A DNA stretch of 64,000 nucleotides from Halococcoides cellulosivorans (GTDB lineage Archaea; Halobacteriota; Halobacteria; Halobacteriales; Haloarculaceae), in the NCBI RefSeq assembly GCF_003058365.1, contig NZ_CP028858.1, positions 310,001-374,000 on the forward strand, read 5' to 3'. A program made the translations under genes and the position numbers. Positions within the stretch are counted from its first letter, which is position 1; each line of letters opens with the position of its first letter. The notes below the pieces were generated by a model that was given only the letters and a program-made list of their open reading frames with translations, had not been told where the DNA came from and ran no database searches. Below, piece after piece: positions 9,382 through 64,000 of the stretch.

Positions 9382-10521
9382 ATGGATATTGCCGATATCG
9401 CCACGAGAGAGTACGTCGACGTGGACGGGAACGAACGGATCGCGAAGGTCCGGTCGATCTTCGAGCGCGAGCGGCCGCGTGGCGTGATCGTCCTGGAGGA
9501 CGGCGAGTACGCCGGGGTGCTCTCGGAGCGCCAGTTCGTCCAGAGTCACGTCGAGGATCGCGCCAAGGCTGCCAAACTCGCCCGGAACGCGCCCAAAGTC
9601 GAGCGGACTGCCGACGTCCGCGAGACGGCCCGCGTGCTCGTCGAGAGCGGGTCCCGCGTCGCGCCGGTGTTCGAGGCCGACCGACTCTGGGGGATCGTCA
9701 CCGACGACGCGATCCTCGGGGCCGTCCTGGAGAACCTCGAAGCGATCGACGTGTCGGACGTCTACACCGAGTCGGTGACGACCGTCTCCGAGGAGACCAC
9801 GCTCGGGAAGGCGATCAACCTGCTTCGCGATCGGGGCATCTCCCGATTGCCGGTCGTCGAGGACGGCGTTCTCACCGGCATCGTCACGACCCACGACATC
9901 GTCGATCTGGTCGTCCGGAACATGGACAAATCGACCGTCGGCGAGCGCGCGGGCGACGTCGATCGGATGCTCGACCTGCCGGTGTACGACGTGATGTCGA
10001 GCCCCGTCGAGACGATCACCGTCGACGAATCGGTCCGGACCGCCGTCGACCGGATGCTCGCCAACGACTACGGTGGCCTGGTCGTCACGCCCGAACGCGA
10101 CGACAGCCTCGTCGCCGGGGTCGTCACCAAGACCGACGTGCTCCGGGCGCTCACCTTCACCGAAGAAGAGCACATGGACGTCCAGATCACGAACGTCAAC
10201 TTACTCGATACGTTCTCTCGGGACAGCGTCCGTGAGGGCATCGAGGCGGTCGCTGACAAGTACCAGGACATGCAGGTCCAGCACGCTCACGTCCGCCTCC
10301 ACCAGCACAAGGAGCGACTCCGGGGCACGCCGCTGATCCAGTGTCAGATCCGCCTGCGGACGAACAAAGGCCAGATGGCCGGGTCGGGCGAGGGCTACGG
10401 CGCGAAGACCGCGTTCAACGTCGCCTGTGACAAACTCCAGCGAAACGTCCTCCAGGCGAAAGGGATTACGAGCGACGAGGAGTACCGCGGACAACTCCTC
10501 CGGAAACTCGGTGAACTGTAG
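9382..10521 (+). CDS. four-CBS-domain protein with C-terminal S30AE/HPF-like domain
   Basis: 379 aa cytoplasmic regulator. Four CBS motifs are visible in the first ~255 residues (for example SGSRVAPVFEADRLWGIVTDD and GISRLPVVEDGVLTGIVTT), forming two adenylate-binding pairs in known homologues. The last ~110 residues (from about 270) contain HVRLHQHKERLRG, then an amphipathic strand, then YGAKTAFNVACDKLQRNVL, resembling the ribosome-hibernation fold of S30AE/HPF proteins. A link from cell energy state to ribosome dormancy is inference. Own promoter; convergent with the rnr-like gene. Confidence 0.8.
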   Translation: MDIADIATREYVDVDGNERIAKVRSIFERERPRGVIVLEDGEYAGVLSERQFVQSHVEDRAKAAKLARNAPKVERTADVRETARVLVESGSRVAPVFEADRLWGIVTDDAILGAVLENLEAIDVSDVYTESVTTVSEETTLGKAINLLRDRGISRLPVVEDGVLTGIVTTHDIVDLVVRNMDKSTVGERAGDVDRMLDLPVYDVMSSPVETITVDESVRTAVDRMLANDYGGLVVTPERDDSLVAGVVTKTDVLRALTFTEEEHMDVQITNVNLLDTFSRDSVREGIEAVADKYQDMQVQHAHVRLHQHKERLRGTPLIQCQIRLRTNKGQMAGSGEGYGAKTAFNVACDKLQRNVLQAKGITSDEEYRGQLLRKLGEL

Positions 10522-10588
10522 GAGACCCGCCACCGTCGGACACTCGGCGGGCGGTCTGGGCGCTCTCGACGCCTGTCGCTGTGGCCGA

Positions 10589-11959
10589 TCACTCCTCCTC
10601 TACGGTCTCTCCTTCGTCCTCTCCTCCCTTCTCGTCCCCTTCGGTCTCTCCGTCCTCGTCGTCGACGACGTCGACTCCGCGATTGTTGACTGCGCTGGGG
10701 TCGAGGCCGACCTCCTGAAGGAAGGTCTTGTACTCGCGCTCGCACTGCTCGGCGTCTTTCTGGCGGTCGCTCGCGCGATCACACAGCGCGACCAGGTCCT
10801 CGGGGACGTCGTTGGTGTGGACGATCCAGTGGTTGATGAGGTCGCTCAGCCGTCTGATGGGCGAGGTGAAGTGCCCGTAGATCTCGAAGTTGAGCGCGTG
10901 ATGCCCGCCGAACGGGTCGTTCATGTACCGGGCGCGGGGCATGACCTTCATCACGGCCCACTGGATCTTGTCGAGTTGGCGCTCGGGCGCGGATTCCAGC
11001 GTCGCGTTGACGGCTTTCCGGGGGTCTTCGAACCCACCGCCGGAGATCGAGACACCGTCGAGGTCCTGGATTTCCTGGAGCGCCTCGTTCCACTCCTCGG
11101 GGCTCGGTTGGGGATGGACGCGGTACATCGCTTCGACGCCCCGATCCCACATGAGAACGTGCGTGACGGCCTTGTTGGCCTTGAGCATGCACTCCTCGAC
11201 GATGGTGTGGGCGCGATCCCGCCGCGGATTGAGGACGAGCGAGCCGTCTTCTTTGCGCTGGTCGTGCATCCGATCGGCTAGTTCCCAGATCGATGCGGTC
11301 TTCTCTGCGAGATCGACCGACTGGTCTTCGAGCAGGTCCGCGGCGGTCTCTGGTTCGTCCAGCAGGCGCTCGGCCTCGCTGTAGGTCAGGCGGGCGTCCG
11401 ATCGGATGATCGATTTGTAGATCTCGATCGAGTCGTAGCCCAGATGCTCGGGATCGAGGTGCATCTCGACGGTGTGCGCGAGTCGGTCCTCGTTCGGGAC
11501 GAGCGAACAGACCGTCTCCGCGAGGATCGGCGGGAGCATGTGGACGGTGTATCCGGGGAGATAGACGGTGTTCGCACGCTCGACGGCGCTGTCCCAGATC
11601 GCCGTCTCGGGGTTGACGTAGTGAGTCACGTCGGCGATGTGCACCCAGAGGACGATCTCGTCGTCGCGGCGCTCGATCGAGACGGCGTCGTCGAAGTCCT
11701 GGGCGTCGACGGGGTCGGTCGTCCACGTCGTCAGATCGCGCAGATCCTCGCGCTCGGAGAGTTCCGCGTCGACGTCAGACTGGACGTCGTCGGTCAACTG
11801 GTCGGCTTCGACTTTCACGGCGTCGGGGAACTCGTCTGGAATGCCGAACTTCTCGAACAGTTCCTCGCGTTTGTTTTCGAGGTGGCGGGCCATCTCCGCG
11901 TCGATCTCGACGGGGCCTTTGGCCTCGGCGGTCCCGGCCTCGGCGTTCGCGTCGGTCAT
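10589..11959 (-). CDS. rnr: RNB-domain exoribonuclease (RNase R/II family)
   Basis: 456 aa processive 3'-5' RNase. The RNB active-site motif DPVDAQDFDD is at 82-91 with four acidic residues for two metal ions. Other RNB marks: YVNPETAIWDSA, GYTVHMLPPILAE and the late HFTSPIRRLSDL. It lacks the N-terminal cold-shock domains of bacterial RNase R, as is usual for the short haloarchaeal form, and ends in an acidic tail rich in D, E and G. The frame is open to 12202, but the ATG at 11959 fits the protein start. 50 bases downstream of a membrane gene on the same strand. Confidence 0.88.
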   Translation of the reverse strand: MTDANAEAGTAEAKGPVEIDAEMARHLENKREELFEKFGIPDEFPDAVKVEADQLTDDVQSDVDAELSEREDLRDLTTWTTDPVDAQDFDDAVSIERRDDEIVLWVHIADVTHYVNPETAIWDSAVERANTVYLPGYTVHMLPPILAETVCSLVPNEDRLAHTVEMHLDPEHLGYDSIEIYKSIIRSDARLTYSEAERLLDEPETAADLLEDQSVDLAEKTASIWELADRMHDQRKEDGSLVLNPRRDRAHTIVEECMLKANKAVTHVLMWDRGVEAMYRVHPQPSPEEWNEALQEIQDLDGVSISGGGFEDPRKAVNATLESAPERQLDKIQWAVMKVMPRARYMNDPFGGHHALNFEIYGHFTSPIRRLSDLINHWIVHTNDVPEDLVALCDRASDRQKDAEQCEREYKTFLQEVGLDPSAVNNRGVDVVDDEDGETEGDEKGGEDEGETVEEE

Positions 11960-12009
11960 GGGCGGGGTACGCGGACCGATCGGGTAGGCGTTTCGACGCC
12001 CTCTCGATT

Positions 12010-12858
12010 TCACTCCCGGGACGTGTCGTCGGACTCGAACCCGTCGGTCTCGCCAGTGACCGTAGTGTAGATCTCGGCAAGAACGGCGATCAGGACCGTC
12101 GAGACGACGGCCCACCAGAACGTGCTCGCGAGCCTGAAGGCCGGAACGGCGAATCCGACGACGGACTCCATCACCGCGCCGGAGTCGTGATTCGTCGTCC
12201 ACCGAATCCCGTCGAGGACCGAGAACGGCGTCACGGTGACGATCCAGACGAGGACGATCCCCAGCAGCGACCGGCGGTGATCGCGTGCGATCTCCGCGCT
12301 CCGCCCGAGAGCGGCGAACGGACCCCGGTTTTCGACGGCGATGGCGAACGGGACGAACGGGACGGTTACCGCGGCGTAGATCCAGAGTCCGGCCAGAGCC
12401 ACGAGTCCGAGCACGACCATCGGAAGCCCGATGACGGCGAGCAACTGGAGGCCGAGGAGAGCCACTGCGAGGGCCACGCCGAGAGCGATCTGGACGACCA
12501 GCAGCGATCCCACGGCCCGGAGGATGCGGTCTGTGAACACGCCGAGGTCGACGGTGTCGAGTGTGTCGATCTCGCGGACGAACAGCCGACAGGCTCCGAC
12601 GGTGACGACCAGCGAGAGGCCGCCCCCGACGAGCGTGAGGACTCCGATCCAGACCTTTCGACCGGTACCCAGGTAGGTGAAATAGTCCATCGTTCGTCCG
12701 ACTGCCCTGGGATCGAACCCCGAGTCCAGCAACGTCTCGACGACGACGAACAGCAAAAAGACGATCATCCCAGACGGCGTTTTCGCCCGATCGATGCCCC
12801 TACCGATCACCTGCCCAACACGGAATGCCACGGATATTTTCCGGTTCGGCTCCGGCAA
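12010..12858 (-). CDS. multi-pass membrane protein, haloarchaeal family (paralogue of next gene)
   Basis: Up to 282 aa with five to six hydrophobic segments (about 25-45, 70-90, 110-160, 165-185, 200-220, 235-260). The N-terminal pattern with loops rich in G and R and the EIARDHRRSLLG segment resemble the DUF7847-like families common in Halobacteria. No catalytic motif seen; function unknown. The first codon would be TTG; a GTG nine codons later is an alternative start. Next to a similar protein at 12910-13620, suggesting tandem duplication and divergence. Confidence 0.72.
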   Translation of the reverse strand: MPEPNRKISVAFRVGQVIGRGIDRAKTPSGMIVFLLFVVVETLLDSGFDPRAVGRTMDYFTYLGTGRKVWIGVLTLVGGGLSLVVTVGACRLFVREIDTLDTVDLGVFTDRILRAVGSLLVVQIALGVALAVALLGLQLLAVIGLPMVVLGLVALAGLWIYAAVTVPFVPFAIAVENRGPFAALGRSAEIARDHRRSLLGIVLVWIVTVTPFSVLDGIRWTTNHDSGAVMESVVGFAVPAFRLASTFWWAVVSTVLIAVLAEIYTTVTGETDGFESDDTSRE

Positions 12859-56115: not shown

Positions 56116-57210
56116 ATGACGGATTCGAACTCGTCATCCGAAGGGATCGATGATACCGACCGTGGTGTGAACCGACGCACTGTGCTCACGGGAGTGGCCA
56201 CCGGCGCGCTCGCCGGGCTCGGCCTCGTCGGCACTGCCAGTGGACACTGGGTCCGCGGCACGCCGGTCTTCTGTGGTTGTGACCAACTCTGTGTCTGTGT
56301 GGCGGGCAACGCAGACGTGTTGATGGCCCAGGAGACCGACGACGGCGGGTACGACGTCGGATTCGTCGTCGACGGGGGCCGTCTCGACCCCGCCCCGACG
56401 GGGACGCCACACTACAGCGGCGACTTCTGCGTCTCGACTGCCGACGACAACGTTCCCGATGGGAAAATCATCGGCCTCCAGGTGGCGGGCACACGATGGG
56501 TCAACCCCGACCAGTGTGCTCAGGACGCCCTCGACGCAGAACAGCGGCAGTTGGATTCGACCCATCTCCGACCGGCGGGGAACCTCGCCAGTGATTGCGA
56601 GACGCCGCCGTGTGTGGACAGCGAGATCGAGGCCACCTGGGAGGACTGCGAGACCGTCTCGCTGTCGGGGCCCGACGAAAACCTAGAGGAGATCGTGGTG
56701 TACCTGATGCGGTGTTTCGACGATCCCGGGTTGGGCTGTCCCGACGGCGCGCAGGCAACGATCGACGATCCCGAGTTGCCACTGACGCTCGGGCGAGATC
56801 GGTTGGCCGTCGGAGACGAACCGTACCACATCGATGCGGTCGAGTTCGTCGGCGGCGTGCACCCAGACCACATCACGCCACCGGACGACTTCGACTGTGG
56901 CTTCGACCAGGACGACACCGACGCGATCGAGGTTATCTGGACGGACTGTGAGACCGTCTCGCTGTCGGGTCCCGACGAAAACCTAGAGGAGATCGTGGTC
57001 TACCTGATGCGCTGTTTCGACGATCCCGGACTGGGCTGTCCCGACGTTGCGCAGGCAACGATCGACGATCCCGAACTCCCGCTGACGCTCGGGCGAGATC
57101 GGTTGGCCCTCGGTGACGAACCGTACCACATCGTCGCACTCGACTTTATCGGGACCGTCCAGCCGGACGACGCGACGCCACCGGACGACTTCGACTGTCA
57201 CTTCGAGTAG
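56116..57210 (+). CDS. Cys-rich Tat-exported protein with duplicated domain
   Basis: 364 aa. Tat signal NRRTVLTGVATGALAGLG (19-36). Residues ~45-165 form a Cys-rich domain (PVFCGCDQLCVCVAGNAD). Then two nearly identical ~90-residue units (about 174-264 and 274-364), each with ETVSLSGPDENLEEIVVYLM, then RCFDDPGLGCPD, then ELPLTLGRDRLA and DEPYHI. DNA of the two copies is offset by exactly 300 bases. Paired Cys suggest disulfides outside the cell. No family recognised; a surface adhesion or binding role is a guess. Confidence 0.82.
   Translation: MTDSNSSSEGIDDTDRGVNRRTVLTGVATGALAGLGLVGTASGHWVRGTPVFCGCDQLCVCVAGNADVLMAQETDDGGYDVGFVVDGGRLDPAPTGTPHYSGDFCVSTADDNVPDGKIIGLQVAGTRWVNPDQCAQDALDAEQRQLDSTHLRPAGNLASDCETPPCVDSEIEATWEDCETVSLSGPDENLEEIVVYLMRCFDDPGLGCPDGAQATIDDPELPLTLGRDRLAVGDEPYHIDAVEFVGGVHPDHITPPDDFDCGFDQDDTDAIEVIWTDCETVSLSGPDENLEEIVVYLMRCFDDPGLGCPDVAQATIDDPELPLTLGRDRLALGDEPYHIVALDFIGTVQPDDATPPDDFDCHFE
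56638..57207 (+). repeat. 300-base in-frame tandem duplication
   Basis: Copy 1 (56638-56937) and copy 2 (56938-57207) align without gaps at a constant offset of 300 bases; long stretches are identical, with scattered, mostly silent, changes. Recent duplication or gene conversion within the Cys-rich protein. Confidence 0.9.
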
Positions 57211-57298: not shown

Positions 57299-57682
57299 CT
57301 ACTCGCGCTCGTTGCCTTCTTCGATCGGAATGCGGTCGTCGGTCACGTCGTCGAACGCCTGGTCCGAGGAGACGATGGGATCGTCACCCGCGAACGCGAG
57401 GTGATAGGCGTCGAACGCGGTGAGGCCGTACTCGTCCATGTAGTCCGCGGCCTGGAACAGGACTGACACGTCCGCGTCGACCGTCGCGATTTCGAGGGCG
57501 TAGCTCAGCGCTGCCATCCGATCGAACTCGAACCGATCCGAGACCATCAACAGTTCCAGCAGCGTCGCCCGAGAGGAATAGAGTTCTCCCTCATACTCGG
57601 CAGCGATCGCGGCGGCCCGCTCCCCCAGCCAGTCGTCGTCTTCCACCAGCGCGATGAAAAAGTCCGTGTCGGCGTCAATCAT
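57299..57682 (-). CDS. vapC: PIN-domain ribonuclease toxin (VapC-like)
   Basis: 127 aa. The PIN acidic residues are all present: D3 (MIDADTD), E43 (LLELLM), D91 (FDAYHLA) and D107 (SSDQAF). In VapC toxins these bind Mg2+ and cut tRNA or rRNA. ATG at 57682 overlaps the stop of the upstream AbrB-type antitoxin frame (TGATG); GTG at 57685 is an alternative. The toxin looks intact while its antitoxin gene is frameshifted. Confidence 0.85.
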   Translation of the reverse strand: MIDADTDFFIALVEDDDWLGERAAAIAAEYEGELYSSRATLLELLMVSDRFEFDRMAALSYALEIATVDADVSVLFQAADYMDEYGLTAFDAYHLAFAGDDPIVSSDQAFDDVTDDRIPIEEGNERE

Positions 57683-57943
57683 CACTCGTCGGACTCGGTG
57701 GCCTCGTCCAGGGCCTCTGATCTCGCCGCCTCACGGGCCTCGCCAGTGATTTCCGCGATCGATCTGTCGTCGAAGGCGTCACCGACGGCGTCGCGAAGCC
57801 CCCCGATCGGGTCGTCCGCGATGGGGATCAGTTCGACGCGATCGGCGAGTGTCGAGGACGTAGCGGTCGCCGTGGCGTTCTCGAATCCCGCTGGGGATGA
57901 CGATCCGTCCCCGATCGTCGGTGGAGACGGTCTTGCTCATCAT
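57682..57943 (-). pseudogene. vapB: frameshifted AbrB/VapB-type antitoxin
   Basis: The first frame gives SKTVSTDDRGRIVIPSGIRE, then RHGDRYV, the N-terminal swapped-hairpin DNA-binding domain. It then turns into Arg-rich nonsense and stops. From ~57850 another frame continues as LADRVELIPIADDPIGGLRD, then AVGDAFDDRSIAEITGEARE and a helix ending TESDE, with its stop overlapping vapC. The junction (57845-57862) has one base too many or two too few. TATA-like CATTTTGTG (57967-57975, minus) precedes the ATG. Real mutation, sequencing error or programmed shift are all possible. Confidence 0.8.
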
Positions 57944-58404: not shown

Positions 58405-58500
58405 CGGGGACTTCGAGTTAGTATAATGGAGTGGGGGTCAGCATTTCAACCATCGCGCTCCATCGCAGAGCATAACCTCCCTCCATTGCACTCTCGTGGT

Positions 58501-60003
58501 ATGCCCCTCTCTTTGCCCGACCTTGAAACGCACCTCTTCAAGTGCGCCGACATTATCCGCGATGCCGTCGATCCGACCGACTACAAGGAGTACATTCTCC
58601 CGCTCGTCTACTACAAATCGATCTCCGACGAGTTCGAGACTCAGTACGCGGCCAACGTCGAGGAGTACGGCGAGGAGTTCGCCCGGCGGAGCAACCTCTA
58701 CGATATTCCCGTCATTCCCGAGGGCTATCTGTGGGACGACGTTCGCGCCGTCTCGGACAACGTCGATCAGGCGCTGAACGACGCGTTCGACGCGCTCACC
58801 GAGGAGAACCCCGAACTCACGGGGGTCTTCCGCGCAGACTACATCGACGCAGACGCGCTCGACGACGACCGGCTTGGAAAACTCGTCGAACACCTCACGA
58901 CGTACGATCTCGACCGCGAGAGCGTGCCGCCGGACATGCTCGGGGAGGCGTACATGGATCTGGTGCGGCACTTCGCGGAGGAGGAAGGCAAATCGGGCGG
59001 GCAGTTCTTCACGCCGCCGCACATCGTCAACCTCTGCGTTCGCCTCGTGGACGAGTTCGAGGACGGCATGACGTTCCACGACCCGACCGTTGGCTCGGGC
59101 GGGATGCTCATCGAGGCCGCCCGCTACTACCGCGAACAGCAGGGCGGCGACCCGACGAAGCTGACGTTCACCGGGCAGGAAATCAACCCCGACATCGCCG
59201 CGATCGCGAAGATGAACCTCTCCATTCACGGCCTGGATGGCGAGATCGAGCGCGAGGACTCACTGTCGAGTCCGGCGTTCACCGACGAGGACACCAGCGA
59301 CCTCACGCGCTTCGATCGCGTCCTCGCCAACTTCCCGTTCTCGGCGGACTGGGCGAAAAGCGACCTCCAGGACGACGCCTTTGGCCGGTTCGACTGGCAC
59401 GAGAAACTCCCGCGTGCCGACCGGGGCGACTACGCCTTTATCATGCACATGGCGGAGCAACTCAAGCGGCCCGAGCGCGACGGGGTGGGCGGCAAGGCCG
59501 CGATCGTCATTCCCCACGGCGTCCTCTTCCGCAAACACGAGTCCCGGTATCGGGAGCCAATGCTCGAAAACGATCTGGTGGAGGCCATCGTCGGGTTGCC
59601 CGAGAACCTGTTCCAGAACAACTCGATTCCCTCCGCCGTCCTCGTGTTGAACGCGGACAAGCCCGCCGAGCGCGAGGGCGAGGTGCAGTTCATCCACGCC
59701 GCCGACGAGGACTTTTACGAGGAACTCTCGAACCAGAACGAACTCACCGACGACGGCCTCGACCACATCGTCGCAAATTTCCGCGAGTGGGCGACCGAGG
59801 AGCGCGTGAGTCGAACGGTGTCGATCGAGGAGATTCGGGAGAACGACTACAACCTCAACATCGCGCTGTACGTCGATACGACGGAGCCAGAGGAGGACAT
59901 CGACGTGGTGGAAGAACTGGCGACGTTGCGCGAGTTGCAGGCCGAGCGGAGCGAGATCGAGGCGACGATGACCGAGCACATGGAGGCGTTGAACTATGAG
60001 TGA
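58501..60003 (+). CDS. hsdM: type I restriction-modification system, methylase subunit HsdM
   Basis: 500 aa N6-adenine methylase. N-terminal HsdM helical domain (LETHLFKCADIIRDAVDPTD), SAM motif HDPTVGSGGMLIEAARYY, catalytic motif NFPFS (N-x-P-F type), and C-terminal NYNLNIALYVD-like end contacting HsdS. The conserved start is the ATG at 58501; an in-frame ATG at 58426, placed ideally for the TATA box at 58394, would add 25 unconserved residues. Overlaps hsdS by eight bases. Confidence 0.93.
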   Translation: MPLSLPDLETHLFKCADIIRDAVDPTDYKEYILPLVYYKSISDEFETQYAANVEEYGEEFARRSNLYDIPVIPEGYLWDDVRAVSDNVDQALNDAFDALTEENPELTGVFRADYIDADALDDDRLGKLVEHLTTYDLDRESVPPDMLGEAYMDLVRHFAEEEGKSGGQFFTPPHIVNLCVRLVDEFEDGMTFHDPTVGSGGMLIEAARYYREQQGGDPTKLTFTGQEINPDIAAIAKMNLSIHGLDGEIEREDSLSSPAFTDEDTSDLTRFDRVLANFPFSADWAKSDLQDDAFGRFDWHEKLPRADRGDYAFIMHMAEQLKRPERDGVGGKAAIVIPHGVLFRKHESRYREPMLENDLVEAIVGLPENLFQNNSIPSAVLVLNADKPAEREGEVQFIHAADEDFYEELSNQNELTDDGLDHIVANFREWATEERVSRTVSIEEIRENDYNLNIALYVDTTEPEEDIDVVEELATLRELQAERSEIEATMTEHMEALNYE

Positions 60004-61306
60004 GGAGGCGACGCTGGGGGAGTTTGCTCAGGGGGATGAGAGCGATAACCAGGAACAGGAGTGGAGGAACGTCCAACTCCACGAGATAGCATATAAACGG
60101 TCTGATAACATTGACCCACAGGAGGTAGCGTTAGAGAAACACGTAGGGTTGGAGCATATTGACCCGAACAGGCCCGATCCTGATTGGGAGTCTCTTGATG
60201 ACCTATCGAGTACTAAGCGCCGATTTGAGGCCGGAGATATTCTCTTTGCAAAACTCCGTCCAAATCTTGAGAAATCGGCACAACCTGATTTTGAGGGCGT
60301 CGCGTCTACCGATATTTTCCCTATTGTGGCGGAGTCCAATGTAAACTCAAAGTGGTTACTGTATCGCCTAAGTTCAAAGCCTGCGTATGACTACGCTCGG
60401 CGTACTTCAGCGGGGACGCGGATGCCGCGAACGTCGTGGAATCTGTTCTGTAACTTTGGTTTCGACCTTCCACCACTCCCCGAACAGCGCAAAATCGCCA
60501 CCGTACTCTACACGGTTGACCGGGCGATTGAGAAGACTGAGGAAATCAAATCCCAGATAGAACGCATCCGCGATGGTGTCCGGCAAGACGCATTTTCTCG
60601 TGGTATTCAGGAGTCTGGGATAGAGCGATCAGATGACGGTTTGAAAGAAACATATCTCGGATCTGTGCCAAATGATTGGCAGTTGCGACGCGTTGACGAG
60701 GTCTGCTCTCACGTAGTCGATTGCCCCCATTCAACCCCGGACTATTCGGAGCACGGAACCCCGGTCGTTCGCACTTCCGAGATCGAAGATGGTCGTTATT
60801 ATCCAGACGAATCTCCACGAGTGGATGAAGAAGGGTATCAGAAGCGAGTTTCTCGGCTGGAGCCGAAACCGGGGGATGTAGTTTTCACTCGTGAGGCACC
60901 TATTGGTGAAGCCTTCAAAATATCTGAAGGTATGAAACTATGTCTTGGTCAGCGGTTGATGCACCTCCGACCCGAAAATGGCGTTCTAGATGCTGATTTC
61001 CTCGTTGAACTGCTGTATTCTGATATGATGCAGAGTTGGTTTGAACGATCTGCACGAGGGAGTACAAGCACTCACGTCAATGTGGGAGATATTGAAAGTA
61101 TGGAAATTCCAGTACCACCGATCGAGGAACAGCATCGTATCGTGGACATTCTCGGTGGTTTTCGTGAACAACTGGATTCAGAACGCAATCTCTTGAGTAG
61201 ATACGAGCGCCTCAAACGCGGCCTTATGCAAGACCTGCTCTCCGGCGCGGTTAGAACCACGAACACCGACATCGAGGTGCCCGACGACATCGCCCAGCAC
61301 GGCTAA
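59996..61306 (+). CDS. hsdS: type I restriction-modification system, specificity subunit HsdS
   Basis: 436 aa with two target-recognition domains. TRD1 ~20-165 ends in FDLPPLPEQRKIATVLYTVD, then a long helix; TRD2 ~225-385 ends in IPVPPIEEQHRIVDILGGF, then the second helix. The two helices form the spacer that sets the gap in the bipartite site. Both TRDs are AT-rich compared with the flanking helices, a sign of exchange of recognition modules. The stop overlaps the next start (TAATG). Confidence 0.93.
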   Translation: MSEEATLGEFAQGDESDNQEQEWRNVQLHEIAYKRSDNIDPQEVALEKHVGLEHIDPNRPDPDWESLDDLSSTKRRFEAGDILFAKLRPNLEKSAQPDFEGVASTDIFPIVAESNVNSKWLLYRLSSKPAYDYARRTSAGTRMPRTSWNLFCNFGFDLPPLPEQRKIATVLYTVDRAIEKTEEIKSQIERIRDGVRQDAFSRGIQESGIERSDDGLKETYLGSVPNDWQLRRVDEVCSHVVDCPHSTPDYSEHGTPVVRTSEIEDGRYYPDESPRVDEEGYQKRVSRLEPKPGDVVFTREAPIGEAFKISEGMKLCLGQRLMHLRPENGVLDADFLVELLYSDMMQSWFERSARGSTSTHVNVGDIESMEIPVPPIEEQHRIVDILGGFREQLDSERNLLSRYERLKRGLMQDLLSGAVRTTNTDIEVPDDIAQHG

Positions 61307-61971
61307 TGTACCGCCTTGCGATCAAAGAGTCGGCCCGCGAGGCGAACGACGCCGTCGCGGACCTCGTCGCTGACCGTGGCGATGTCCTCGACTGCGAGTC
61401 CGAAGGGGCGGCCCAGGCCCTCGCGGAGCGGGTCAGTGCCGCCGGGGAGCGCGTCCGTGTGCAGGCCGCCGCGCCGCAGGACTCGAGCGACGCGGACGGC
61501 TATCTCATCCGGCACCCGCGGCGGTACGTGTCCGACCCGAAGCCCTCGGACACGACCGGGCTGACCTTCGACGTGGGCGCGAACCAGTACGGCGCACTTG
61601 GGGAGGCGCTCGTCTGCGGTACGTCCGGGCTGGCTCGGGGCATCAAGCACGTCCTGCGCAACGAACTCGACGACGTGATCGACGAGCGCCACTACCTGTA
61701 CGGGATTCCAGACCCCTACATCACGGACGACCTCGACGCGGACGTGTCCTGGTCGCCCGATCTGCTGGTGCTGGTCGGGTCAGAGTATCAGGATAATCCT
61801 GTAGCGATGTACTACTGCGAGATCAAGACCGGCGACGCGTCCTTTCAGCGCACTCAAGCGGACGATATGCAGGCCGTCGCTCGGGAGTACGGCGTGCTGA
61901 AGATCAGGGTCATCGTCGAGGCCCTGCCCGACGAGTACACGCTTGAAGTCTCCGAAGTTCAGGCCGATTGA
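61306..61971 (+). CDS. PD-(D/E)XK nuclease-like accessory protein inside the type I RM operon
   Basis: 221 aa; not one of the three standard Hsd subunits. The C-terminal half fits a PD-(D/E)XK fold: acidic E100 in a helix (GALGEALV), D152 in WSPDLLVLVG, E172 and K174 in YYCEIKTGDASF, and Gln in QRTQADDM after it. The N-terminal ~90 residues (LAIKESAREANDAVADLVAD) are helical. Start overlaps the hsdS stop, so it is made with the methylase and specificity subunits. GC-rich, unlike hsdS. May cut, guide or restrain HsdR; function unproved. Confidence 0.78.
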   Translation: MYRLAIKESAREANDAVADLVADRGDVLDCESEGAAQALAERVSAAGERVRVQAAAPQDSSDADGYLIRHPRRYVSDPKPSDTTGLTFDVGANQYGALGEALVCGTSGLARGIKHVLRNELDDVIDERHYLYGIPDPYITDDLDADVSWSPDLLVLVGSEYQDNPVAMYYCEIKTGDASFQRTQADDMQAVAREYGVLKIRVIVEALPDEYTLEVSEVQAD

Positions 61972-62225
61972 TCGAGACCGCACACGAGTTCTGCCATGCG
62001 GTCCTCTCCGACCGATTCGATCGCTGGGGTGACTGACTGCGCTTGAGTTACGCGCTCGAAATTCGCTCTAACTCAAACTGATCCTGGCTATATTTGAGTG
62101 AGAGGCGAAATCTCCGACACCGATTTATTGGAGCACATCACCGCCGCCAGCGCTAACTCAAATACGGCTGTCCGGTTCGGGCGATCCACCGATACAAACT
62201 TCCATCCCGCGAACAACTGTCAGCT
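61972..62225. promoter_or_regulatory. hsdR upstream region with four TTGAGT/ACTCAA elements
   Basis: TTGAGTTA (62043-62050) pairs with TAACTCAA (62069-62076), and TATTTGAGT (62091-62099) with ACTCAAATA (62156-62164); the same hexamer core in alternating orientation. A TATA-like GATACAAAC near 62191-62199 is 27-35 bases before the hsdR ATG. So hsdR has its own, probably regulated, promoter. Confidence 0.65.
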
Positions 62226-64000
62226 ATGGATGCCATCCCATCCGAGGGCGGCGTCGAACGTTCGCTTCTCTCGTGGCTCGACGGCGTCGGATGGGAGACA
62301 CACGGACAGGACGGCGGACGCGGGGCGACCGTGCTCGACGAGGCCCACGAGCGCGACAGTCACGAGGTGATCTACTGGGATCTCCTTGCCGAGCAGGTCG
62401 TCGCGCTGAACGAGGGCGTGACCGAGGCCACCGTCGAGCAGTTCGTCTCCTCGCTCCGGCGTGATCTCGACGCCGAGAACCTGATGGACGGCAATCGCGC
62501 GTTCTACCAGGTGCTCACCAAGGGCAAGACGTTCAATGTCACGCGCGATGATGGCGCGACCGACACAATCTACGTTGACCTCCTCGACTACGAGAACCCC
62601 GAGAACAATCGCTTCCACGCGGTGAATCAGTTCTCCGTCTCTCGCGAGACGACCATCCGCCCGGACGTGACCCTGTTCGTCAACGGGATTCCGCTCGTGA
62701 CGATGGAACTCAAGAGCCTCGCGCAGGACAACGACTGGCACGACGCCGTTCGCGATCTCAAGGCCTACGAGGAAAGCGTGCCCCGGTTGTTCGTCCCCGG
62801 ACTGTTCAATATCGCCGCCGATACGATGGCACTGCGCTACGGCGCGGTCGGCGCGCCCACGGAGTTCTACGAGCCCTGGAACGACGCGCCGGCGGTGTAC
62901 GAAGACGACAACGCAATGCGGCAGGCGGTGCGGGCGCTGTGCAATCCCGAGGCGATTCTCGACCTGCTCAAACACTTCGTGTTCTACGAGCGCCGAGCGG
63001 GTGGCGACGCGAAGATCGTCCCGCGATATATGCAGTACTACGCGGTGAATCGCATCCTCGATCGGGTTCGCGAGGGCGAGCACAGGCGCGGGCTGATCTG
63101 GCACACTCAGGGGTCGGGCAAGTCGTTCACGATGCTCTACGCCGCCGAGAATCTTCTCTCGCGCCCCGCCGTGGCGCGCAACCCGCAGGTGTTCGTCATC
63201 GTGGACACGGACAAACTCAACAGCCAGATGCGCGACCAACTGGCGAACCTCTCGCTGGAGCAGTGGACGGAGGCCGAGAGTATCGACCACCTCCAGCAAC
63301 TCATCGAGGAGGGGCGCAGTCAACTCGTCCTCACGACGATTCAGAAGTTCGAAGATGTCGATCCCGACGTGCAGGGGAACGACGAGGTGATCGTGATGAG
63401 CGACGAGGCCCATCGCTTCATGGAGGGTGGCCTTGGCAGTCGTCTCGAAAACGCTCTCGATGGGGCCTACCACTTCGGATTTACTGGCACGCCGGTTCAG
63501 GAAGGGGAGCGGTATGCACCGGACGAAAGTGAGCAGGCCAAGCGCAATACGATGCGCGAGTTCTGCCCCGAGGGCGAAGACTATCTCCACCGCTACTCGG
63601 TCAAGCAGGGCATCGACGACGGGCTGATCTTGCCCGTCTACTTCACGCTCCGCCACGAGATGGCGTGGGAGATCGACGAGGCCGGACTCGACGAGGAGTT
63701 CGAGCAGACGTTCCGTGGGATGACGACCGACGAGAAACGCGATTTCATCCGAGAGACCGTGACGGCGACGACGCTTGCAGAGATCGAGCCCCGCGTCGAG
63801 ACGGCCGTCGCAGAGATCGACGCCCACTACGACGACCACGTCGCTCCGAACGGGTGGAAAGGGATGGTCGTCACGCCGAGCCGACGCTCGGCGGCGATGT
63901 ACGGTGAGCGACTCGTCGAACGGCGCGGTGACGAGGAGGTGGAGGTCCTCTACACGGCGACCAACGACGACCCCGATATTATCCAGCAGTTCCACACGGA
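62226..64000 (+). CDS. hsdR: type I restriction enzyme, HsdR subunit (cut by window edge)
   Basis: 591 codons of a DNA-translocating endonuclease. N-terminal nuclease domain with PDVTLFVNG, then LVTMELKSLAQD (PD...ExK), then SF2 helicase motor: Walker A IWHTQGSGKSFTM, VIVDTDKLNSQM, LVLTTIQKFED, DEAH in VMSDEAHRFM and motif III FGFTGTPVQ. The second RecA domain and C-terminus lie beyond the window. ATG at 62226 is just after a TATA box. Separated from the nuclease-like gene by 254 bases, unlike the overlapping genes before it. Confidence 0.94.
   Translation, partial: MDAIPSEGGVERSLLSWLDGVGWETHGQDGGRGATVLDEAHERDSHEVIYWDLLAEQVVALNEGVTEATVEQFVSSLRRDLDAENLMDGNRAFYQVLTKGKTFNVTRDDGATDTIYVDLLDYENPENNRFHAVNQFSVSRETTIRPDVTLFVNGIPLVTMELKSLAQDNDWHDAVRDLKAYEESVPRLFVPGLFNIAADTMALRYGAVGAPTEFYEPWNDAPAVYEDDNAMRQAVRALCNPEAILDLLKHFVFYERRAGGDAKIVPRYMQYYAVNRILDRVREGEHRRGLIWHTQGSGKSFTMLYAAENLLSRPAVARNPQVFVIVDTDKLNSQMRDQLANLSLEQWTEAESIDHLQQLIEEGRSQLVLTTIQKFEDVDPDVQGNDEVIVMSDEAHRFMEGGLGSRLENALDGAYHFGFTGTPVQEGERYAPDESEQAKRNTMREFCPEGEDYLHRYSVKQGIDDGLILPVYFTLRHEMAWEIDEAGLDEEFEQTFRGMTTDEKRDFIRETVTATTLAEIEPRVETAVAEIDAHYDDHVAPNGWKGMVVTPSRRSAAMYGERLVERRGDEEVEVLYTATNDDPDIIQQFHT

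Follow-up and report, generated by a model that had tools for sequence, protein, structure and literature searches.

Why does a haloarchaeal type I restriction-modification (RM) operon carry an additional gene between hsdS and hsdR, and is the encoded protein a part of the restriction enzyme? The question arises at the end of the window, i.e. the whole stretch of 64,000 nt that was analysed, which belongs to the genome of Halococcoides cellulosivorans, a single contig of 2.72 Mb. The additional gene, here called X, looks like an added weapon or a passenger of the operon and not like a standard part of the machine. The reading that we favour, with modest confidence, is that of an auxiliary, PD-(D/E)XK-like nuclease whose gene was captured by a type I accessory slot.

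The hsd operon and gene X

The features of the operon are the following:

58426..60003, plus strand: hsdM, modification subunit (Pfam N6_Mtase, E=6e-80, and HsdM_N)
59996..61306, plus strand: hsdS, specificity subunit (Pfam Methylase_S, 8e-26, two stretches; PADLOC Specificity_I)
61306..61971, plus strand: gene X, predicted PD-(D/E)XK nuclease-like protein of 221 aa (ORF, sequence, 40-member family alignment)
61306..61527, plus strand: N-terminal domain of X, residues 1-74 (N-terminal-only matches in more than 100 genomes)
61549..61965, plus strand: nuclease-like domain of X, residues 82-220, with E100, D152, E172, K174, R182 and Q184 (invariant or nearly invariant columns; predicted fold)
61759..61827, plus strand: D152 codon (61759-61761) to E172-I-K174 codons (61819-61827) (sequence; D152, E172 and K174 identical in 40/40 homologues)
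61972..62225, no strand: gap of 254 bp before hsdR with four TAACTCAAA-like half-sites, direct and inverted; possible control region
62226..64000, plus strand: hsdR, restriction subunit of 993 aa, running past the window end (HSDR_N 8e-41, SWI2_SNF2 5e-56, TIGR00348)

A first, sequence-only reading had placed an ORF of 221 aa at the end of hsdS, and its location between genuine hsdM-hsdS and hsdR genes was confirmed. The ATG of X overlaps the stop codon of hsdS (TAATG), in agreement with the translational coupling to hsdS that had been proposed. The true start of hsdM may be an internal ATG at residue 26, since the homologues begin further in. HsdR was read at full length in the sequence extending beyond the window (L032) and looks complete, including a nuclease domain of its own (HSDR_N).

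Given the gap of 254 bp, a separate promoter is plausible for hsdR. The half-sites in the gap are located at 62042-62050, 62069-62077, 62093-62101 and 62154-62162, and one further half-site (TTCGAGTTA) precedes hsdM at 58412-58420. Of the four exact copies of TAACTCAAA in the 2.72-Mb genome, two are in the gap, and the repeats may represent an operator peculiar to the window locus. A conserved RM operator was considered and rejected, as none of the further type I loci that were examined showed this arrangement of repeats, not even the one in genome G140, which also carries X. A PIN-domain protein (Pfam E=1e-9), possibly a VapC-type toxin, is encoded on the minus strand (57299-57685) some 700 bp before the operon, and an ORF on the plus strand (56116-57210) combines a Tat-like start with an internal duplication of about 90 residues in which DCETVSLSGPDENLEEIVVYLMRCFDDPGLGCPD is repeated.

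The first ~74 residues of X form a separate domain, which many haloarchaea also encode by itself, in the form of small proteins. These proteins have a length of about 100-140 aa (L152-L168, e.g. L152 1465-1803), many of them possess a basic RRRRLRG stretch and a QxxL/F-like C-terminus, and the one that was scanned had no Pfam match. Relatives consisting of the nuclease-like domain only were also found (L111 10412-10972 and L170 1297-1824); one is encoded two genes 3′ of hsdR in another type I locus (genome G034) and the other adjoins a Fic-like gene.

Conserved residues and the nuclease question

E100, P151-D152 and E172-I-K174 were found at the positions named in the sequence-only reading, and in the alignment of 40 homologues D152, E172, K174 and the following Gln (Q184) were invariant (40/40), while E100 was kept in 37/40. 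The complete set of invariant residues in the 40 full-length sequences comprised W149, P151, D152, E172, K174, G176, R182 and Q184, and a 35-member alignment contained 13 invariant columns. With 13 invariant columns distributed randomly over 221 positions, the four named positions would all be invariant by chance with p ~7e-6, a hand calculation that ignores residue-specific conservation. The PD-(D/E)XK active-site set, (E)...(P)D...(D/E)xK, is present in the X family, and it is well supported by the alignment that the conservation pattern is the one expected for such an active site with a helix Gln.

The motif order E ... PD ... ExK ... Q is common to X and the PD-(D/E)XK nucleases of the Mrr_cat, VRR_NUC and HSDR_N families, and the spacing of PD, ExK and Q in X presumably resembles that of VRR_NUC. 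In contrast, sequence or profile similarity of X to Mrr_cat and HSDR_N was undetectable, hhalign of the X family giving no signal against either and the positive control (Mrr_cat vs HSDR_N) failing as well; for VRR_NUC the archaeal members were too few for an alignment. The N-terminal domain of X is specific to its family.

Searches with the window protein against Pfam, NCBIfam, PHROG, PADLOC and PDB sequences yielded zero matches to a named family. With 35 homologues nothing significant was obtained in Pfam and PHROGs (NCBIfam and PADLOC being searched with the window protein only), and the family profile found nothing in the PDB. The best hints within the family were DUF2188 (E=0.026, three members) and DUF1491 (0.0033, one member). 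AF2 models of X calculated from few-sequence input (two sequences) had mean pLDDT values of 38 and 33 and were unusable because few sequences had been submitted.

Because neither the structure models nor the profile comparison gave a usable signal, it is the conservation of the motif that carries the nuclease assignment. Of the claim that X is a PD-(D/E)XK nuclease, the part concerning the active-site residues held well, whereas a matching named nuclease family was absent. A protein that binds DNA or acts as a regulator, with the motif serving in another role, would agree with the missing fold support from AF2 and profile comparison, and the basic tails (KRRRRLRG) of the stand-alone N-terminal domain proteins suggest nucleic-acid binding. 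On the other hand, the D...ExK...Q set together with the upstream E persists in some 40 proteins, most of which share 31-45% identity with the window X, and this makes a non-nuclease role appear very improbable. X probably cuts DNA.

A mostly solitary family and its C-terminal tails

Full-length homologues of X were present in 39 of the 391 haloarchaeal genomes searched, and additional genomes from three families contributed few more. No full-length X was found outside the order in the phylum sample, and no relatives were found in viral contigs and a phage collection, by which a viral origin of X is unsupported. The 40 aligned homologues were 31-56%, mostly 31-45%, identical to the window protein. 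At two of the 40 full-length homologue loci only, those of the window and of genome G140, were hsd genes located within ~9 kb of X, a few of the 40 loci lying near contig ends. X therefore belongs to an undescribed haloarchaeal family that is mostly solitary and mostly independent of RM systems.

Annotated examples are borne on plasmids in Halomicrococcus, Haloarcula, Natronomonas pharaonis PL131, Haladaptatus and Natrinema, where they are designated 'hypothetical proteins' and have varied surroundings. Some tail-less solitary X genes are located near a pAgo, HerA, PLD-helicase, AddAB-like or Fic-like gene (L050 with pAgo at 9980-12715, L048, L065, L044 and L043, candidate defence genes of PADLOC included), an observation uncorrected for background.

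A C-terminal tail of at least 17 aa was observed in 17/40 homologues, and all 17 tailed proteins contained a PIP-like motif (TLDEF, SLDSF, SLDDW, TLGEF) within the last 12 residues, in 14 of them at most two residues from the C-terminal end. The strict motif was found 15 times among the 535 proteins called in these loci, 14 of which were X homologues; the single other protein ends in NQSTLGDF. The archaeal PIP-box has been described as QxxI/L/MxxFF/Y, usually at the extreme terminus (PMC2737543, PMC3504372). Its Gln is often replaced in the tails of the X homologues. We infer that many solitary members bind PCNA, which is a prediction from the tail sequences. The long-tailed solitary proteins ending in TLDEF, SLDSF or SLDDW come near to haloarchaeal DNA repair enzymes with a PIP-box (PMC2737543), unlike the window X, which has no such tail. 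Neither the window X nor its RM-linked sister carries a C-terminal PIP-like motif; the tail is missing in both RM-linked proteins and in roughly half of the solitary members.

The window X and the X of G140 are sisters (SH-aLRT 99 in the X tree) with 56-57% identity, all others being below ~48%. Their genomes belong to different families, and the HsdM and HsdR proteins of the two loci fall into different supported clades (the HsdR tree being a quick one). X may have been transferred from one system to the other, perhaps along with hsdS; the alternative is that a single lineage was captured on two occasions. A rough hand estimate based on 39 X genes, about 12% of genomes with the system and one junction among about 3000 genes predicts ~0.0015 such coincidences under random placement; the association of X with type I loci is therefore real though rare.

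The hsdS-hsdR junction and known systems

A search with HsdM identified the same type I system in many haloarchaea, and the junction was compared in 40 loci with readable hsdS and hsdR genes (HsdM 76-89% identical). In these loci hsdS and hsdR normally overlap (CAGcATGGTTAG, with HsdS ending in ..QHG* and HsdR starting with MVS), and in about 12/40 the junction is occupied by X or by unrelated genes, namely X (2 loci), a 111-aa membrane protein (5), PIN-type genes (2), a second hsdS (2) and an antisense subtilase-like ORF (1). Some of the occupants are thus of toxin-antitoxin type. By this comparison, the hsdS-hsdR junction appears to serve archaeal type I loci, too, as a slot with changing accessory genes. 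The unclassified 111-aa membrane protein (L117 5347-5682, oriented; also L120, L122, L126 and L132), starts in the overlapping frame context (MVS..) normally used by hsdR. At the 3′ side of hsdR, a gene for a YgjP-like metallopeptidase (Pfam PF01863, E=1e-56 in L111) was present in 39/40 loci as a near-constant further gene of the operon that usually overlaps the end of hsdR; in the window operon it lies just beyond the window end (L032 13201-13920).

In the window, HsdS still ends in ..QHG*, the embedded start of hsdR is gone and the start of X is in its place. In G140, the sequence before X probably retains a trace of the former hsdR start (ATGGATAGCCTCTGA). Two genes come after X there, the first for a nucleotidyltransferase and the second small; they resemble an MNT-HEPN pair, and a Pfam match was obtained for the first only. 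The position of X therefore coincides with the junction, and X is now coupled to hsdS in the way that is usual for hsdR.

The proposal that X is a component of the type I system was contradicted from both sides, as 38/40 related type I loci lack X and 38/40 homologue loci lack hsd genes within ~9 kb. The expected recurrence of hsdM-hsdS-X-hsdR in a neighbourhood survey does occur, but it is narrow, covering two loci from two archaeal families. An integral fourth subunit, or a processing nuclease that the type I enzyme requires, would account for the translational coupling to hsdS and for the conserved catalytic residues; it is nevertheless highly improbable in view of the absence of X from 38/40 loci with such closely similar HsdM proteins and of an HsdR that appears complete with its own nuclease domain.

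At the opposite extreme, X might be an independent defence or DNA-repair gene riding in a tolerant slot and functionally unrelated to restriction. The other occupants of the slot (membrane protein, PIN-type genes and extra hsdS), the nucleotidyltransferase gene beside X in G140 and the solitary state of most X genes point in this direction, but the RM-linked copies are tail-less sisters in non-sister systems and X has assumed the coupling that normally belongs to hsdR, so that a pure passenger is distinctly unlikely.

The favoured reading, in which X is a captured accessory gene instead of a type I subunit, is preferred because a sister X is found at the corresponding junction of another type I system that is not itself a sister, and because the X family is mostly RM-independent. 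The conserved active-site residues and the location of some solitary relatives beside defence genes such as pAgo, HerA and a PLD-helicase speak for it as well. X would then be a metal-dependent PD-(D/E)XK DNA nuclease whose N-terminal domain is small and whose synthesis accompanies that of the M and S subunits; it would cut DNA and either add a second nuclease barrier to foreign DNA or process DNA cut by HsdR, HsdR not being needed. With the PIP-box-like tail gone, the RM-linked lineage would presumably no longer act through the PCNA clamp. A more specific history, in which a tail-less lineage arose from a PCNA-tethered haloarchaeal PD-(D/E)XK family and was recruited by type I systems as an additional DNA nuclease coupled to the methyltransferase, is rather unlikely; if true, there would be type I systems with two independent cutting enzymes.

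A functional link of X with the type I enzyme is weakly supported, because the RM-linked examples are two only. X may be a second effector, and the suggestion of a control on HsdR found no direct support. The locus draws attention to an uncharacterised nuclease-like family in haloarchaea: if X works with the type I enzyme, it would be a second effector missed by current annotation, and if it does not, it would still be a predicted, unannotated haloarchaeal nuclease, many tailed members of which probably act on the PCNA clamp.

Among known systems, PrrC of the type Ic prr/hsd loci of E. coli and others is likewise a nuclease encoded within a type I hsd locus, and it is silenced by the type Ic enzyme (PMC3874168). 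By analogy, the type I complex could keep X inactive and let it go once HsdR is blocked by a virus, whereupon X would act as a second and possibly suicidal nuclease, the coupling to hsdS fixing the stoichiometry. The slot and the coupling logic shared with PrrC, together with the formation of a separate lineage by the RM-linked copies, are in favour of such a guard. However, PrrC is an RNase that cuts tRNA, contains an ABC-ATPase and an anticodon-nuclease domain and is invariably linked to type Ic loci, whereas X, with 221 aa, PD-(D/E)XK-like motifs and no Pfam match, shows neither domain and is mostly solitary; moreover, 38/40 relatives have no nearby hsd genes, so a silencing partner of type I is not generally needed. 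A PrrC-like function of X is thus unlikely.

The accessory slot has a further parallel, since the bacterial hsdS-hsdR junction is a described site of embedded defence genes (PMC12255303). DarTG2 and other embedded pairs of the RptR-controlled RRDM island lie between hsdS and hsdR, in the same position as X, but they are different, bacterial proteins, and the window operon showed no gene for an RptR-like repressor. Such a slot was not mentioned under the terms searched in surveys of archaeal and halobacterial RM systems (PMC10609329, PMC6471742). Both the position between hsdS and hsdR and the variable occupancy among related loci were found for X. This type of slot is known, and what is new is the kind of occupant, a predicted DNA-nuclease-like protein of an undescribed family.
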